64,000 nt of DNA from Sandaracinus amylolyticus (GTDB taxonomy: Bacteria; Myxococcota_A; Polyangia; Polyangiales; Sandaracinaceae). The position numbers and the translations under genes are program-made. Under the pieces are notes generated by a model, which made no database searches, was not told the origin of the DNA, and saw nothing but the letters and a program-made list of their open reading frames with translations. Positions 15,862 through 23,809 of the stretch are shown here, one piece after another (the stretch's first letter is position 1; each line of letters opens with the position of its first letter). The stretch lies in contig NZ_CP070225.1 of the NCBI RefSeq assembly GCF_021631985.1, forward strand, positions 7,130,001 to 7,194,000, in the 5' to 3' direction.

Positions 15862-17355
15862 TCAAGTCTCGCGGTGCAGGCCATGAACTCGAATGAGCGT
15901 GTAGACGTACGAGCGAGCGACATCGAGCTGGCGAGCGGTCTCGGTGATGTTCCAGTCGGTCGATTCCAGGATGGCTAGCACGTGAGCACGCTGGAACCGG
16001 CGCGTCGCTTCCTGCAGCGTGAGCGTCTCGTCCTGCCCCGGGACGGCATCATTCGTCGGGAAGAGGTCACGGACCTCCACGCGGCCGACCCCTCGCATGT
16101 GCGCGTGAAGCACCGCCGATTCGATGCGATTCGCGAGCTCACGAACGTTTCCCGGCCACTCGAGCGCGGCGAGCGTGCGCAGGACCTCGGGTGAGAGCCG
16201 CGATACCTCGAGCTCGTGGCGTCGCGCGGCGGACCGACAGAAGTGAACGGCCAGTGGGATCACATCCTCGATCCGCTCCGCAAGGGACGGTATGCGCGCC
16301 TCGAAGACCTTGAGACGATAGAACAGGTCCTCACGAAATCGCCGCTGTGCGACGGCGGTGGGCAATGCCACGTTCGTCGCCGCGATGATCCTGACGTCGG
16401 CGCGTCGCGCGTTCGTCGATCCCAATCGATAGTAGGTGCGGTCCTGCAGCAGCTGCAGGAGCTTCGCCTGCGACGAGAGCGCCAGCTCGCCGATCTCGTC
16501 GAGGAACAACGTTCCTCCCTCCGCCGCCTCCACCTTCCCGCGAACGCCTCCGCGAGGCACGGCGGAATGCGCGCCCGGGTCGGCGCCGAAGAGCTCGTTC
16601 TCGAGCAACGACTCGGGGATCGCGGCGCAGTTGATCTCGACGAAAGGTCGGTGCCGGCGGTTGCTCGCGGCGTGGATCGCGTTCGCGAACAGCGTCTTGC
16701 CGGTACCCGATTGGCCCGTGAGCAGCACGTGCACGTCGAGCGGAGCCACGAGTCGGAGCTGTTCCACGATCCGCCGCACGAGCGGACTCCGGGACACGAT
16801 CCCGGAGAACGCGCTCTCGTGCGTCACGTCCGGAAGCTCGCTCGAGTTGCGATGCAAGAGCAGCTCGGCGATCGGCGCGAGCGCCTGCGCGAAGAACATC
16901 ACGTGCTCGCCGGTCGCCGAATCGTCGAGCCCCGACGACGCGCCCTCGCGCTGCCCCTGGAGGTAGACCACACCGACCGGTCGCTCGCGACCGATCGGCG
17001 CGCAGAGGACGGCCTCGATCTCGTGCTCACGCACGCTCCCGAGCGCCGAGAACCGATCGTCGTGCATCGCCGAGGGCGTGAGGATCAGCTCGCCCGTCGC
17101 GATCGCCTCCGCGACGATCCCACGTGAGAACGTGCCGCGGATCTCGTCGATCCTCACGGTGTCGCAGCCCTCCGACACCCACCAACGCGCCCTGTCGTCG
17201 TCCTCGCCGCGGAGCTCGATGTAGGCCTCGCGCGCGCCCGTGACCTCGAGGAGAACGGCGAGCGCGCTCCGAAGCATCGGCTCGGGCGCATCGTGTGAGC
17301 CCAGCTCCAGGAGCTTCCGATAGAAGTCGCGCTCGCGATGAACGTCGAGGGTCAT
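15862..17355 (-). CDS. GAF-AAA+ enhancer-binding-protein-like regulator with degenerate GAFTGA loop
   Basis: 497 residues: a GAF-like sensor (about 20-165), a sigma-54-activator AAA+ domain (about 183-410) with Walker A TGQSGTGKT (213-221), ELFGADPG, Walker B GGTLFLDEIGE and the R-finger section FREDLFYRLKVFEARIP, then a Fis-type HTH (TETARQLDVARSYVYTLI) at the C-terminus. The loop that contacts sigma-54, normally GAFTGA, is GAHSAV (261-266). The ATPase core therefore looks intact while sigma-54 remodelling is doubtful. It is the fourth gene of the minus-strand kinase/lipoxygenase/catalase-like run, 38 bp after the catalase-like gene. Its GAF domain could sense a lipid product. Confidence 0.88.
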   Translation of the reverse strand: MTLDVHRERDFYRKLLELGSHDAPEPMLRSALAVLLEVTGAREAYIELRGEDDDRARWWVSEGCDTVRIDEIRGTFSRGIVAEAIATGELILTPSAMHDDRFSALGSVREHEIEAVLCAPIGRERPVGVVYLQGQREGASSGLDDSATGEHVMFFAQALAPIAELLLHRNSSELPDVTHESAFSGIVSRSPLVRRIVEQLRLVAPLDVHVLLTGQSGTGKTLFANAIHAASNRRHRPFVEINCAAIPESLLENELFGADPGAHSAVPRGGVRGKVEAAEGGTLFLDEIGELALSSQAKLLQLLQDRTYYRLGSTNARRADVRIIAATNVALPTAVAQRRFREDLFYRLKVFEARIPSLAERIEDVIPLAVHFCRSAARRHELEVSRLSPEVLRTLAALEWPGNVRELANRIESAVLHAHMRGVGRVEVRDLFPTNDAVPGQDETLTLQEATRRFQRAHVLAILESTDWNITETARQLDVARSYVYTLIRVHGLHRET

Positions 17356-17393: not shown

Positions 17394-18503
17394 TCACGGC
17401 GGCTTGCGGAGCGCATCCAGACCCCGCGCGGCGTAGTCGTCGCGGAGCGCTCGCACCGAGTCGCGTGATTCTCCAGTCGAGCGCGCCACGAGATCGATCG
17501 AGTGCCCGGTCGCGAGCATGATCAGGGCCCGCGCGCGCGCCCGCTCGCCTTCGTCGTCGGTCTCCTCGGCACGCTCACGGAGCTTCGCGTCGACGAACCC
17601 GGCGGGAGCGAGATCGGCGTCGGCGACGGGCGGATCGCTCGAGCTCGCGTGAGGGAAGAACAACAGCTCGTCGCCCGCGATCGAGATCCGGAACCGCGTG
17701 CTCAGCGAGATCACCGCGATCAAGGTTCGCTCGCCCGATTCGTCGAGCGCAGCGACGTCGTAGAGCGTGGCCCCCGGACAGAGCGTCGGATGATCGGTGA
17801 GCGTCCGCAGGAAGTCGGACCCTCCGGGCAGCGAGACCTGCACGCGCGGAACGAGCTCGAGCGCGCGAGCGCGAAGGTCCTGCCCGACGAGAGGCGCAAC
17901 CGGCAGCTCGTCGATCGCAGGCGGATGCTCGAACCCGTTCTTGCGAAGGAGATCGACTGCCTCCTGGAACGCGAGCTCGAGCACCGGCCGCAGCACCGAT
18001 TTCGTATCGGGGTCCACTCGCCCCGAGCGCGTCGAGAGCCGCGTGGCGGGTTGGAAGAACTCGGGCGCCTGCATGCCGTCGGGATCGGTGACGAAGAGAA
18101 GATTCGCGACGCTGCGCGCGCCCTCCGGCGCTCCGTCGTCGAAGAACTTCAGCGCGACGCCGATGAGGTAGTCGTTGAGTGGCGTGCGCCCGCACTCCAC
18201 CTGCAGCATCCGCGGCTCGGGCGTGTTCGAGAAGCGCGCGAGGGCGATCTGCGGGCGCGCGAGCGGGCCTCCCAGAGCGACGCGCGGAGTCCATGACACG
18301 AGCGCATACGCGCCCTGCGAGTGGAAGACGCGCGGATATCCCTCCGGACGTAGATCGCCGCGGTGTCGGAACACGATTCCGAGGCGGTGAGCGTTCGTCT
18401 GGTCCTGATATGCCTCGTCACCGGGCTGCGGCATCGGCGTGTCCGACGGGACGCAACGGTCCCAGAGCCACTGCAGCGCAGGGCTCACGCTCGGGGGCCA
18501 CAT
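17394..18503 (-). CDS. Catalase-like (heme) domain protein with C-terminal HTH-like tail
   Basis: 369 residues. The start ATG overlaps the lipoxygenase stop (TGATG at 18503). The region 56-140 follows the catalase core: YPRVFHSQGAYALVSW with a candidate distal His61, IALARFSNTPEPRMLQ, then LIGVALKFFDDG and SVANLLFVTDPDG with a candidate distal Asn134. It is shorter than catalases and I find no obvious R-x-x-x-Y proximal heme-ligand segment. Residues 320-369 (RARALIMLATGHSIDLVARS ... SRDSVRALRDDYAARGLDAL) look like a helix-turn-helix of the kind found at IS630 transposase N-termini. By analogy with catalase-related proteins that work with lipoxygenases, it may process fatty-acid hydroperoxides. 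That role is inference. Confidence 0.72.
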   Translation of the reverse strand: MWPPSVSPALQWLWDRCVPSDTPMPQPGDEAYQDQTNAHRLGIVFRHRGDLRPEGYPRVFHSQGAYALVSWTPRVALGGPLARPQIALARFSNTPEPRMLQVECGRTPLNDYLIGVALKFFDDGAPEGARSVANLLFVTDPDGMQAPEFFQPATRLSTRSGRVDPDTKSVLRPVLELAFQEAVDLLRKNGFEHPPAIDELPVAPLVGQDLRARALELVPRVQVSLPGGSDFLRTLTDHPTLCPGATLYDVAALDESGERTLIAVISLSTRFRISIAGDELLFFPHASSSDPPVADADLAPAGFVDAKLRERAEETDDEGERARARALIMLATGHSIDLVARSTGESRDSVRALRDDYAARGLDALRKPP

Positions 18504-20287
18504 CAGATCGCCACCCACAACCGCAGCCGCTTCAGCTCGAAGTCGGCCGCTCCGAGCGCGGCCTCCTCGTCCTGGAGATGCGTCATCAGCGTGACCAGGA
18601 TCGCGTGATCCGCCTCGTCGAGCACCGCAGGGTCGTCCGGGCTCCGTCGGACGTAGCGCTCGGGATTGGCGTCGATATCGACCCAGCGTCCGTACTTCGT
18701 ATTCGACAGGACGTCGGCGAGCAGACACTGCATGAGCGCATCACCACGCTCCGGCGCTGCTCGCTCGAGCCAGTCGGCGTACTCGGGCTCGGGCGGCGAC
18801 TTCGCGCGCAGCGCGAATGCCGCGAACGCGGGGTCGCCTCCGACGTCCCACTGCTGATCGTTCGCCCAGGTATGGAAGAACGTCGCGTGATAGATGGCGT
18901 GGTGAACGAGCTTGCGCAGGTCGTCGACCCTCGCAATCGGGGGGACGGGGCCCGCGCTCCAGGGTCTACCGGCGGGCGCGCGCCGCGCGTGCCCGATGGC
19001 AGCGTGGAACCGCTCGATCTCCCCCCAGTGCGCGCGGATCGCGGCGTCGTTGGCCTCGAACCAGGCCTCGAGGAACGCGTCGACACCGCGCGCGAACGCG
19101 GCGCCGGCCCGTCGATACCGGCTCGACGGATGCGGCGTGGGAGGGACCCACGTGCTCCACGCGTTCCGTTCCAGCACCTCGGTCAAGACAGTGCCGAACG
19201 CTTCGGCCGCGAGACCGCTCGTGACCGCCAGGATGCTGCCTTCGCCGAACACGAGCGGGACACCGAGGTCGTCGATCTCGACGACGGAGCGAAGGAAGGG
19301 TCTGAGGAGCGAGAAGACGGGGCTCTGCGCGTCCCCTTCGAACATGGCGTCGACGGCGCGCCGATAGACCTCGGTCACGACGTGACCACGGCCGAGGTGC
19401 CCGCGGAGCTGCCCGTCGAGCAGGAGCGCGGTCCGCGCGCAATGCTCCGCGTACTGCCACGCTGCTCCGGCGCTCGGCTCGTAGCGTTGATGTTGGGTGC
19501 CGTGGAACGCGACCGAGATTGCCTTCACCGTGCGCGCCGACGGGTCTCCGGTGAGCTCGATGCGTACCGAAGGGGCGAAGTAGCCCGCCGAACTCCCTTG
19601 AAGAGCTCGCCAGTCGATGTCGATCACGTCCTGATCGGGATCGTGCGGCGAGAGTCCGTCGAACAGGAGCTCGGCGAGCGCGGGGCGCCGCGGTGCCGGC
19701 ACCTCGATGGGATACGCTGGATCGACCAGGCGCGCGTGCTTCGCCCACTCGGCGTAGCCCTCGTGCATCCCGGCGCGGGCCCACGACTTCGACTGCTGCT
19801 CCGCGTCGGCGAACGACGGCAGGGGATTCGCGCGATTGGTGAACCACATCGACCGCGTGAACGCGAGGAGCGCCGTCCGATCGTCGGGGTACACGCCCGC
19901 GTGCGAGCCGACGTACGCATGCAGCGCGAGCATCGCGATCGGCCGCGCGATCACGCGCGACGCGTATTCTTCGTGCCAGCGCGAGTCCCGCTCACCGGGC
20001 GGCGGATTCAACAGCGCATTGGCGACCCGACCGGTGGAGAGCGCGATGAGCTCCGACGCGAGCGCCCAGGAGCCCTCGTCGAGATTCGCGAGCAGCGAGA
20101 CGAATGCCACGCGCCGCTCGAACGGGTCCGAGGTGGCCACGCCGGCCTTTTGGAGGAGCGCGTCGAGCAAGCCCCAGTCTGGGTGCTCCGGTACATTGAA
20201 CATCGCGAGACCGCCGCTCGCGTCCGGCAGCTTCAGATCGAACGCGTCATCGCCGATGTGGAATTGCAGCACTCGGTCAGAGCTCAT
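18503..20287 (-). CDS. Lipoxygenase-family protein
   Basis: 594 residues. Iron-ligand pattern of the lipoxygenase fold: W-Q-Y-A-E...LLLDGQLRGHLGRGHVVTEVYR gives H297-x4-H302, VHHAIYHATFFHTWANDQQW gives H472 and N476 four residues apart, and the chain ends exactly in Ile594 (RLWVAI), matching the C-terminal Ile carboxylate ligand. No signal peptide is visible. Lipoxygenases add O2 to polyunsaturated fatty acids to give hydroperoxides. The start ATG lies 15 bp after the kinase gene, and the stop overlaps the catalase-like gene, so product hand-off between the two is plausible. Positional specificity cannot be read from the sequence. Confidence 0.83.
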   Translation of the reverse strand: MSSDRVLQFHIGDDAFDLKLPDASGGLAMFNVPEHPDWGLLDALLQKAGVATSDPFERRVAFVSLLANLDEGSWALASELIALSTGRVANALLNPPPGERDSRWHEEYASRVIARPIAMLALHAYVGSHAGVYPDDRTALLAFTRSMWFTNRANPLPSFADAEQQSKSWARAGMHEGYAEWAKHARLVDPAYPIEVPAPRRPALAELLFDGLSPHDPDQDVIDIDWRALQGSSAGYFAPSVRIELTGDPSARTVKAISVAFHGTQHQRYEPSAGAAWQYAEHCARTALLLDGQLRGHLGRGHVVTEVYRRAVDAMFEGDAQSPVFSLLRPFLRSVVEIDDLGVPLVFGEGSILAVTSGLAAEAFGTVLTEVLERNAWSTWVPPTPHPSSRYRRAGAAFARGVDAFLEAWFEANDAAIRAHWGEIERFHAAIGHARRAPAGRPWSAGPVPPIARVDDLRKLVHHAIYHATFFHTWANDQQWDVGGDPAFAAFALRAKSPPEPEYADWLERAAPERGDALMQCLLADVLSNTKYGRWVDIDANPERYVRRSPDDPAVLDEADHAILVTLMTHLQDEEAALGAADFELKRLRLWVAI

Positions 20288-20302: not shown

Positions 20303-23300
20303 TCAGGCCGAACGTGTCGGCGAAACCAATCTGCAGAACGGATTCACGATCGCCCCATCTCCGTCGCATCCCGCTTCTCGCCAGAGCCTCGCGTACGTGA
20401 GCAGCCCACTCTGCTCGAGCGCGTGCGCCGCTCGATCCGAGAGCGCCGACGCTCGCTCGTCGCGCGCTGCGCGAGCCAGGTTCGCGCGCAGCACCAGCCC
20501 CAGCGCAGAAGCCCAATCGGTGCGCTCGCGATCGAGCTTCGCGATCGATGTGCGGACGATGTGGTCACGGCGTCGCGCATGCGCGATGAGACCGTGGAAC
20601 CAAGCCAGCTCGATCCGATTGGCCTGCGCACCGACGGCCCAACGCGAGCGGTCGAAACGAGCGAAGTACTCCTCGAAGCGATCGTGACGTCCCGCGCAGA
20701 GATCGATCTGCACGCGAGCGCGAAGGTAGAGGTACTCGAGCGCCGGAGGGCGCACTCCATTCCAGGGCGACATCGCCCGCTCCAGGCGCTCCAGAGCGGC
20801 CTCGGGACGATTCCGCGCGAGCTCGAGCAGATATCCAGCGCCGACCTCGAGCAGCGCACCGATCAGACGATCACCGACGACGTGCAGCGTCTCCTGCACG
20901 TCGGGGAGCTCGCGCTCCAACACGTCCAGGCGATCGAGCCAGGCATCGGCGAGACAGACGTGCGCGCGGGCGAGCGACAGGGGCCAACGCGCGCCGCCGA
21001 GTCGTTCGTACGCGAGCGCCGCGCTCGAGAGGAGCGGGCGGGCCTCCGCGAAGCGCGCGGTCATGAACGCCTCGTAGCCGCGCGCGGCGAGCACATACGC
21101 GCGCGCCTCGGGATCGTCGACGGCGTCCTCGAGCGCTCGCAGCTCGGCGTCGACGCGCAGACGTGCCGGCGCCCGCGTGCCCCGCATCACGCCCGTGTAG
21201 ACGAGCTCGTTGGCGGTCGCGCGAAGGAGCTGCGGCCCCGGACCGAGCTCACGAGCCCAGCGCAGCATCCGCGACTGGAACGTCGCGCCCGTGACCGTGT
21301 CGACGATCCCGTAGATGCTCGAGAGGGACGCGAGCGTGTCACAGCCCTGCTCGAGACGATGCGCGTCGATCGGCGCCCGCCGCGGCAGTCCGGACGAGAG
21401 GGCCAGCGAGGCGCGCTCACGGAAGAACCCCAACGCAGCGCCGACCGCGCCGCTCGGGCGGCGCATGCCCAGCGACGACAGCGCCCGGTCGATCAGTGGA
21501 AACGCGCGCTCGAGGTCTCCGCTCGAGAGGAGCAGGTTCGCTGCCGCGGCGCGAAAGCGATCTGCGCCCTCGACGCCGAGCTCCTCGCTCGCGCGCAAGC
21601 ACAGCTCCACTGCGCGCGTCGGGCGACCCGCGAGCGACAGGCAGCGCACCCATGCGTCCACGACGCGCGCGAACGCAGTGTCGTCGGCGCGCACGGCGAG
21701 CTCGTACATGTCCGCCGCCTGACCGAATGCGAGGCCTCGCTCGGCGCGCAGCGCAGCCTCGAGCGCGCGCTCGTGCGCTGCGGCCCAGTCGTGCGCAGTC
21801 TCGTACAGGCGCGCGAGCACCGCAGGCTCCGCGCGGCCGGTATCCGCCCATGCCCTCGCGACCGAGGCGGACGCGCGTCGCACGTCGTTCTGTGTGGCTG
21901 CAGCGGTGATCCGCTGTCGCATGCTCTCTTGTGAGAACGAGAGCGCCGGAGCGTCCGAGCGCCGAACCGCGTCGAGCGCTCCGGAGCGGCAGAGCCCGAA
22001 CAGAGCGCGCGCACGGTCCTCGTGCCCGCTGGCCGCGAGGATCACGTGCGCGGGAACGGGTGCTCCGCAGACCGCGATCTGCAGCAACACATCCCGCGCC
22101 GTCGCATCGAGCGCCCCATCACCGCCGCTCGCGGCCAGCACCTCGCGAGCGAGCTCGATCGTGAGGTACGCGTTGCCTTCGCTCTGGTCGGCGATCGACT
22201 CGGTGCGCGCGCCCGCTCCGTGCGCGCTCGCGAGCTCGCACGTGATCGCTCGCGGCAGCGGCCCGAGCTGCACGCCGTCACCCAGCGCGCTCCGATCGAG
22301 CGCGCTCAGCAAGGGGCCCTCGTGCGCTCGGTATGTGAGCACGACCGCAGTGCGCTCCGGCTCGTCGCGGATGCACTGCGCGAGGATCGTCGCGGAGTCC
22401 GCGTCGATCGCGTGCGCATCGTCGATCCACAAGATCGTCGGCGCTCGCTCGCCGAGCCCACGCAGGGCTCCGCGCACGGCGCCGACGAGCGCGCCGATCT
22501 CGACCGGCACTGCGGGAGGCGGCTCGACGTGGGCGACCAGTGCGGGGAACGCGTGCAGCAGCGCGGTCCGCTGCGCCGGCGGGAGCGAGCCCAGGATCTC
22601 GGGGAACGCGGGATCGTCGGCCATCGCGTCGACCACGCCGTCGAGAGCCTGGAAGCGGAGCGACTCGATCGGGTCGCAGCGGCTCGCGAGGAGCCGGGCG
22701 CCGAGCGCGTCACGGGCCATCGAAACAGCCGCGCGGACGACGGCTGTCTTCCCGATCCCCGCGGGACCGCAGACGTGCACGACTGCGAATCGCTGCTGCC
22801 CGGTCGCGATGCGTGCGGCGAGCGAGTCGATCTCGGCATCGCGCCCGACGACACGTGCCGTCGAAGGCTCGCGCGTGCTCCCACCGAGCGCTCGCGCGAG
22901 CTCGTCCGCGGAGGGCCGCCGCGTCGCATCGGGCAGGAGCGCGAGCGACAGGAGCCTCTGGAGATCGTCCGAGATCGGAGCGCGGAGATACCTCGACCAC
23001 GAAGGCGCGGGCCGCTCCGATGCCGTCATGGCCCACGGCCGCGCAAACCGCCGCCCGGCCAAGAGCTCGATCGCAGTCGCTGCGGCGGAGAACACGTCCG
23101 ACGCGGCGTCACGCCGAGCCCTGTACACCGTCTCCGGAGCTGCGTAGTGCAGCGTGCCCGCGAAGCGCCGCCCGACCGTGCCCGCGCCGGTCGACGTCGC
23201 GAGCCCGAAGTCGAGCAGCACGGCTCGTCCGGCGCGGTCGACGAGGACGTTCGAGGGCTTCACGTCGCCGTGGACGACGCCGGCGGTGTGCAGCGCGGCG

Positions 23301-23809
23301 AGCGCCTCGAACACCTGTCGAACGAGGTCGGTGGCGCCGACGAGCTCGACGGCGTCGGACGACGACGCGTCCACGATCTCCATCGATAGGACGAGGCGCC
23401 CTTCGACCTCGAGCAGCTCGTAGAACTGGACGAGCCCGCGATGCCGCAAGTGTCGCAGCAGTCGGAACTCTCGCTTCAATGCGCGCGCCTCGTCGGCGCT
23501 GCGTTGTGCCAGGAGCTTCAGCGCGACGTCCGCGCCGAGGTCGCGGTCACGTGCCGCCCATACCGTCCCCGATGCGCCGGCGCCGAGCAGCCCACGAACC
23601 TCGAATCGTTGGCCGAGCTCCGGGAGTGTCTGAGCCGCGTGGGTGGAGTGCACGTCGACCGCATGCGAGCGGCGCCATCGCCGGCTCACGACGCGAGCGT
23701 CGCCGAGGGCTCTCCGGCGTGTCAACGCGCGCCGAGCGGGCGCACGCGTCACCGCCGCAGCGTCCGCGCGCGGCAGCGCTCCGGACGCAGCGTCGCCATG
23801 ACGAGCCAT
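20303..23809 (-). CDS. Ser/Thr protein kinase fused to AAA ATPase and TPR-like region
   Basis: 1168 residues. Hanks-type kinase domain at about 69-310: glycine loop GAGASGTVW (76-84), Lys98 in VALKLL, catalytic loop HGDVKPSN with Asp182 (no preceding Arg, so a non-RD kinase), DFG at 200-202 and GTLHYAAPE. Next is an AAA/MalT-like ATPase with Walker A GPAGIGKT (348-355) and Walker B ILWIDDAHAID. A long Ala/Leu/Arg-rich helical repeat region then runs to the end. No HTH is seen. Such kinase-ATPase proteins are signal-integration hubs in myxobacteria. It heads the run that encodes the lipoxygenase and catalase-like proteins. The N-terminal 50 residues are Arg/Ala-rich and the true start may be further downstream. 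Confidence 0.9.
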   Translation of the reverse strand: MARHGDAASGALPRADAAAVTRAPARRALTRRRALGDARVVSRRWRRSHAVDVHSTHAAQTLPELGQRFEVRGLLGAGASGTVWAARDRDLGADVALKLLAQRSADEARALKREFRLLRHLRHRGLVQFYELLEVEGRLVLSMEIVDASSSDAVELVGATDLVRQVFEALAALHTAGVVHGDVKPSNVLVDRAGRAVLLDFGLATSTGAGTVGRRFAGTLHYAAPETVYRARRDAASDVFSAAATAIELLAGRRFARPWAMTASERPAPSWSRYLRAPISDDLQRLLSLALLPDATRRPSADELARALGGSTREPSTARVVGRDAEIDSLAARIATGQQRFAVVHVCGPAGIGKTAVVRAAVSMARDALGARLLASRCDPIESLRFQALDGVVDAMADDPAFPEILGSLPPAQRTALLHAFPALVAHVEPPPAVPVEIGALVGAVRGALRGLGERAPTILWIDDAHAIDADSATILAQCIRDEPERTAVVLTYRAHEGPLLSALDRSALGDGVQLGPLPRAITCELASAHGAGARTESIADQSEGNAYLTIELAREVLAASGGDGALDATARDVLLQIAVCGAPVPAHVILAASGHEDRARALFGLCRSGALDAVRRSDAPALSFSQESMRQRITAAATQNDVRRASASVARAWADTGRAEPAVLARLYETAHDWAAAHERALEAALRAERGLAFGQAADMYELAVRADDTAFARVVDAWVRCLSLAGRPTRAVELCLRASEELGVEGADRFRAAAANLLLSSGDLERAFPLIDRALSSLGMRRPSGAVGAALGFFRERASLALSSGLPRRAPIDAHRLEQGCDTLASLSSIYGIVDTVTGATFQSRMLRWARELGPGPQLLRATANELVYTGVMRGTRAPARLRVDAELRALEDAVDDPEARAYVLAARGYEAFMTARFAEARPLLSSAALAYERLGGARWPLSLARAHVCLADAWLDRLDVLERELPDVQETLHVVGDRLIGALLEVGAGYLLELARNRPEAALERLERAMSPWNGVRPPALEYLYLRARVQIDLCAGRHDRFEEYFARFDRSRWAVGAQANRIELAWFHGLIAHARRRDHIVRTSIAKLDRERTDWASALGLVLRANLARAARDERASALSDRAAHALEQSGLLTYARLWREAGCDGDGAIVNPFCRLVSPTRSA

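Follow-up and report, generated by a model that had tools for sequence, protein, structure and literature searches.

A lipoxygenase gene overlapping that of a putative catalase-fold partner in Sandaracinus amylolyticus, and recurrence of the pair in Myxococcota

To our knowledge, the functions of bacterial lipoxygenases are mostly unknown. Catalase-fold domains are joined to lipoxygenases in the coral cAOS-LOX and cHPL-LOX proteins and in cyanobacterial catalase-lipoxygenase fusions; coral cAOS uses H67, N137, R64 and R102, and Y353 is its proximal ligand (PMC5617202). Separate proteins are also described. Nostoc punctiforme reportedly has a linoleate 10S-dioxygenase and a separate catalase-related 10S-hydroperoxide lyase (Brash et al. 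2014, as cited in PMC9410191, PMC9579011 and PMC13049297), and the catalase-type protein Fg-cat of Fusarium graminearum acts on a 13S-hydroperoxide (PMC11719350). In Pseudomonas aeruginosa PA1168-PA1169 (loxA), a lipoxygenase is co-transcribed with its neighbour (PMC8271024).

We analysed a stretch of 64,000 nucleotides from Sandaracinus amylolyticus (contig NZ_CP070225.1, positions 7,130,001 to 7,194,000; hereafter the window), in which a lipoxygenase gene overlaps the gene of a second protein, here called the partner. The features of the locus, with positions counted within the window, are as follows:
20303 to 23809, minus strand: Ser/Thr kinase with an AAA_16 ATPase domain and an extended C-terminal region; the lipoxygenase gene follows after 15 bp
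18503 to 20287, minus strand: lipoxygenase gene, ATG at 20287, TGA at 18505-18503, 594 aa
18501 to 18505, minus strand: stop/start overlap TGATG of the lipoxygenase and partner genes, one base (A) common to both
17394 to 18503, minus strand: partner gene (P0003; putative catalase fold), ATG at 18503-18501, end at 17394, 369 aa
17394 to 17537, minus strand: DNA-binding-type HTH at the C-terminus of the partner, about residues 323-369 (Pfam HTH_29, AlphaFold2 model)
15862 to 17355, minus strand: regulator with GAF, sigma54-interaction and Fis-type HTH domains, 38 bp downstream of the partner gene

The initial annotation had the coordinates of the two central genes and the TGATG overlap right: both lie on the minus strand and share a single A. 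It did not mention the same-strand run described next, the HTH at the end of the partner or the loss of the proximal-tyrosine helix. Kinase, lipoxygenase, partner and regulator form a four-gene run on one strand with gaps of 15, -1 and 38 bp, and this spacing makes a single transcript for the four genes likely. Third-position GC is high across the lipoxygenase and partner genes, including the tail of the partner, and a simple pattern search found no sigma54-type promoter near the operon. On balance we somewhat favour the reading that the lipoxygenase and its partner carry out the catalysis at the centre of a small oxylipin module under regulation.

The locus resembles the Nostoc punctiforme pair in having a separate oxygenase and catalase-related partner, and cyanobacterial members of the partner's family lie directly 3' of such a dioxygenase; however, the oxygenase of the window is an iron lipoxygenase and no COX-like haem dioxygenase lies beside the partner. 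As in the coral and cyanobacterial fusions, a putative catalase fold with its distal His and Asn kept accompanies a lipoxygenase, but the genes of the window are separate and run in the order lipoxygenase then partner. The Acaryochloris fusion (L096) also has the proximal Tyr helix, whereas the window partner does not. Fg-cat is likewise a separate catalase-type protein, and is reportedly encoded next to a lipoxygenase; unlike the partner, it is fungal and reported as a catalase, and we liken the two by description. The mycobacterial 33-kDa protein 3e4w and the y4iL-like proteins are, like the partner, small catalase-fold proteins, but the y4iL-like proteins keep the C-terminal Tyr helix and showed no link to an oxygenase gene in those Nostoc loci that we examined. 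The pairing of a lipoxygenase gene with a neighbouring gene also recalls the loxA operon. PA1168 itself was considered as a member of the partner family and rejected, the neighbour being a 110-aa ORF in the sole lipoxygenase-bearing Pseudomonadaceae genome found. The arrangement in the window had been proposed as new. The two-gene logic is already known from Nostoc punctiforme (PMC9410191, PMC13049297) and from Fusarium (PMC11719350), whereas the partner family, which lacks the proximal ligand, and the module linked to a kinase appear to be new within the literature and databases searched; a literature search on myxobacterial lipoxygenases with catalase returned nothing relevant.

Alignment with other lipoxygenases placed the iron ligands of the window lipoxygenase at H297 and H302 (HLGRGH), H472 and N476 (FFHTWAND) and the terminal Ile594, confirming the initial statement that all expected ligands, Ile594 included, are kept. 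A phmmer search against the PDB matched the lipoxygenase 5ek8 (E 6.8e-27), while Pfam PF00305 gave nothing even at E values as high as 1, NCBIfam was likewise blank and tblastn found no match in plasmids. Judged by its sequence, the protein is a divergent bacterial iron lipoxygenase. Two further lipoxygenase loci are present in the same genome (C1:236532-236864 and C1:8888115-8889398), both of which match PF00305, and no second copy of the partner family was found at or with them.

The window partner matched neither PF00199, nor the NCBIfam catalases, nor any PDB chain (phmmer); a scan of genome contigs with this sequence alone found no relatives, and among 184 genomes of the order its own copy was the sole find. 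Its tblastn matches in plasmids had E values of 0.6 or worse and fell mostly on the HTH, and one of them pointed to a member in Pseudomonas veronii. The first homologues, P0005 in the myxococcotal genome G455 and P0004 on a Pseudomonas veronii plasmid, came from these weak plasmid matches and from 379 Myxococcota genomes searched with permissive settings. A three-sequence profile found members in ten Myxococcota genomes, one of them weak, and a motif-based scan gave 24 family loci from Pseudomonas, Hydrogenophilales, cyanobacteria and Myxococcota, while the family profile drew only chance matches from the PDB sequences. The family, as defined by sequence, is apparently undescribed, and the window partner sits on a long branch within it. 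For many members, from other myxobacteria, Pseudomonas and Hydrogenophilales, neither a lipoxygenase nor a dioxygenase gene lies in the neighbourhood, indicating that partnership with an oxygenase is not universal in the family. The Pseudomonas members (L053 8001-8981; P0004) start with a lipoprotein-like signal (TTGC), which suggests that they are exported, unlike the oxygenase-adjoining cyanobacterial and myxobacterial members. At L055 (8972-9583), the gene of the Hydrogenophilales member has an alternative oxidase gene (PF01786) after it.

We compared a profile of the partner family with combined profiles of catalases and catalase-related proteins using hhalign, which gave an E value of 1.7e-5 and a score of 47.5, against 15.0 for the reversed control and 14.3 or less when the columns were shuffled; a global alignment with a small set of classical catalases was uninformative. 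In the profile alignments H61-x-x-G and R90-x-S92 were paired with the catalase distal motifs. AlphaFold2 run on the window partner sequence alone reached a pLDDT of 38, and a 20-row alignment gave a mean pLDDT of 63.5; several core strands reached 84-94, and residues 24-60 and 282-303, the latter including H285, were poorly modelled. The best Foldseek match to this model was yeast catalase A, at an E value of only 4e-3. When the Foldseek candidates were realigned with VIA-align, all of the top 50 rows were catalase-fold entries (Z 9.3-10.6); the first row was chanoclavine synthase, itself a catalase-fold enzyme, and 3e4w reached Z 9.6. Many of the structural matches span model residues 56-57 to 285-288, corresponding to human catalase 69-70 to about 337-341, and so stop short of the proximal tyrosine, Tyr358 in the human enzyme. 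Together with the profile comparison, the model supports, with moderate confidence, a catalase fold for the partner. The catalase core of the initial annotation is thus favoured by profile-profile comparison and model structure while staying invisible to Pfam, NCBIfam and phmmer against the PDB, and the predicted fold is, in all of the top 50 VIA-align rows, that of a catalase, where the annotation had named any other fold as a refutation.

By its invariant residues, this family retains the distal part of a catalase-type pocket. In each of 32 aligned rows, some of them near-duplicates, H61, G64, G79, R90, S92, K119, N134, D230, F283 and H285 are present, and R or K stands at position 58. This supplies a catalase-type distal set of His, Asn and haem-propionate-binding basic residues (H61, N134, R90 and position 58), and the invariant residues fit the distal His, Ser and Asn and the haem-propionate residues of catalases, whose counterparts in coral cAOS are H67, N137, R64 and R102. 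H61 and N134, named beforehand as candidate distal residues, were therefore well chosen. The C-terminal helix that carries the proximal tyrosine (R...Y) is absent: the family sequences end before it and the structural matches stop short of it. No tyrosine is invariant in the 32 rows, and at position 276, where Tyr is commonest near the C-terminus, the window partner has Ala. Y276, which lies in a YGD motif, was rejected as a family-wide proximal ligand because it is present in 27/32 rows and missing from 5, among them that of the window. H61 and H285 are the sole invariant histidines. The end of the local profile alignment places F283-P284-H285 on the catalase F-x-P, and in catalases the proline that H285 aligns with packs against the haem on its proximal face. 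This position makes H285 a candidate replacement ligand, and a His-ligated haem is possible on these alignments.

The C-terminus of the partner matches Pfam HTH_29 at an E value of 7.2e-6, slightly under the Pfam cut-off, and the corresponding helices have pLDDT values mostly between 76 and 88 in the AlphaFold2 model. These well-predicted helices, the missing proximal Tyr helix and the flanking regulatory genes (kinase and sigma54 activator) would suit a different role, in which the partner is a one-component regulator of the locus, its catalase-fold domain binding the lipoxygenase product, with or without haem, as a sensor of hydroperoxides or fatty acids while the HTH binds DNA. We consider this unlikely. 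The HTH was seen in no other member of the family, which would limit a sensor to the window protein, it resembles the HTH domains of IS630-type proteins as well as falling just below the cut-off, and the distal catalytic residues are still invariant.

The partner family was also linked to a second, unrelated kind of oxygenase. In the loci whose neighbours were examined, the cyanobacterial family genes lie directly downstream of a COX-like haem dioxygenase (PF03098 in the one tested) and are followed by a GMC oxidoreductase and by patatin or other redox genes. In all nine Nostoc-genus genomes where the close dioxygenase has a gene of its own, a member of the partner family comes directly after it, and the other catalase-related genes examined in those genomes lie elsewhere. 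The family is thus associated both with a lipoxygenase and with a COX-like haem peroxidase (dioxygenase). In Nostoc punctiforme the dioxygenase and lyase genes reportedly adjoin, with the dioxygenase upstream, and both products are said to have been shown to be haem proteins. By analogy of gene order, the characterised N. punctiforme lyase likely belongs to the partner family; if it does, the family binds haem in the absence of the tyrosine, which would favour H285 or another ligand. As a separate observation, one Nostoc-genus genome (G525) encodes a 973-aa protein (L114 1492-4413, minus strand) in which a y4iL-like catalase-related domain, with its proximal-Tyr region present, is fused to a COX-like dioxygenase.

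These comparisons bear on the chemistry that had been suggested for the partner, namely that of an allene oxide synthase. As a haem enzyme of the coral type, it would turn the hydroperoxide into an allene oxide, and the catalase fold, the distal His and Asn and the Arg and Lys of haem-propionate type are what such an enzyme would keep. However, Y353 and R360 of cAOS have no counterpart in the family, many catalase matches end before the proximal Tyr, and the nearest analogue in gene order, that of Nostoc, is a lyase and not an allene oxide synthase. The helix with the proximal Tyr is shared by catalases, coral allene oxide synthase and the cyanobacterial fusion and is missing from the partner, so that this chemistry is unsupported and, in our judgement, very unlikely. 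The loss of the proximal ligand, the tight gene overlap and the link of the family to an unrelated dioxygenase could also point to a catalytically dead helper of the lipoxygenase, shaped like a catalase but serving as a chaperone or carrier, either to present substrate or to stabilise the enzyme. This we find distinctly improbable, since the distal catalytic set is invariant across very divergent proteins, which would be unusual for a mere scaffold.

We looked for the pair in other myxobacteria, as the initial annotation had proposed, and found that it recurs. Among the 379 Myxococcota genomes sampled, 3 carry lipoxygenase-partner pairs, five pairs in all including that of the window; the four further pairs lie in two distant genomes, two in G455 and two in G204. 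In both G455 pairs the partner start overlaps the lipoxygenase stop by ATGA, and in G204 the two pairs face each other (partner-lipoxygenase and lipoxygenase-partner). The two are separate genes in all five pairs, with no single-chain fusion. In L016, what looks like a lipoxygenase fusion of 1425 aa is probably an open frame that extends across neighbouring genes, and it was left uncounted. A kinase with Pkinase and AAA_16 domains is found near 5/5 pairs. G455 has three full-length homologues of the window kinase; two of them accompany its two pairs, one directly beside a pair and the other about 7 kb away, and the best match in G204 adjoins a pair. For the GAF-sigma54 regulator of the window, the best of 28 matches in G455 is the gene beside its first pair (E 3.9e-95, vs 1.3e-72 for the next). 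The five pair-linked lipoxygenases form one group in the lipoxygenase tree (support 84/91), and none of 500 shuffles was as low; one row of the tree (own3), outside this group, was read in the wrong frame. That the genes are co-oriented neighbours by chance, with no functional link, might be argued from the congeners searched, which lack both the lipoxygenase gene of the pair and the partner gene, and from the absence of the pair from nearly all of the 184 genomes of the order, but is extremely unlikely given the four further pairs in two distant genomes, the overlaps in both G455 pairs, the kinase near every pair and the grouping of the pair-linked lipoxygenases.

As a genetic unit that recurs, the split system of lipoxygenase and catalase-fold partner has good support. 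A lipoxygenase overlapping a putative catalase-fold partner, and recurring with it in Myxococcota, makes a split oxygenase/partner system, and with it a split oxylipin pathway, plausible, and the recurrence of both with the kinase in distant relatives suggests that these bacteria make or sense oxidised fatty acids by a system that is under control. In the favoured oxylipin module, the lipoxygenase, judged by homology and its intact iron ligands, would use O2 to convert a polyunsaturated fatty acid to a hydroperoxide, which would pass to the partner and be transformed or cleaved in its distal His/Asn/Arg pocket, the partner acting as a hydroperoxide lyase, peroxidase or isomerase. Any haem in the partner would be held differently from that of catalase, most likely with the invariant His285 replacing the lost tyrosine. 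As the conserved neighbours suggest, supply would be controlled by the products of the flanking genes, the Ser/Thr kinase with its AAA domain and the sigma54 activator. A more detailed proposal, tentative and as a whole doubtful, is that the family is a widespread and undescribed branch of the catalase fold which lost the tyrosine helix, holds haem through the invariant H285 (F-x-H), keeps the distal site and converts the hydroperoxide made by the adjoining oxygenase (a lipoxygenase in Myxococcota, a COX-like enzyme in cyanobacteria), having come under kinase control as an oxylipin module in Myxococcota and gained an HTH in the window. If the partner binds haem lacking a proximal tyrosine, this would be a new mode of holding haem in the catalase fold, and the set of lipoxygenase, partner and kinase would give some bacteria a regulated oxylipin pathway like those of eukaryotes. 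The use of one kind of partner by two unrelated oxygenases would bear on the evolution of hydroperoxide-processing enzymes.

It should also be noted that the lipoxygenases of the other pairs vary. Both G204 proteins (L050 6359-8737 and 8787-11240) have Gly at the expected Asn iron ligand, and those of G455 end in Ser or Ala in place of Ile. The lipoxygenase of the second G455 pair (L049 3561-7523, contig C20) is 1320 aa long and fused at its N-terminus to a DUF7379 domain (PF24096, E 6.6e-56), which by eye is lipase-like and might release the enzyme's own substrate. One window-kinase homologue in G455 (L101 10177-13716, contig C19) has a stretch at its N-terminus that looks HTH-like by eye, with no lipoxygenase in the stretch read. 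Two related genomes (L015 and L017) carry clusters in which a patatin-like gene, so named by eye, lies between two lipoxygenase genes.
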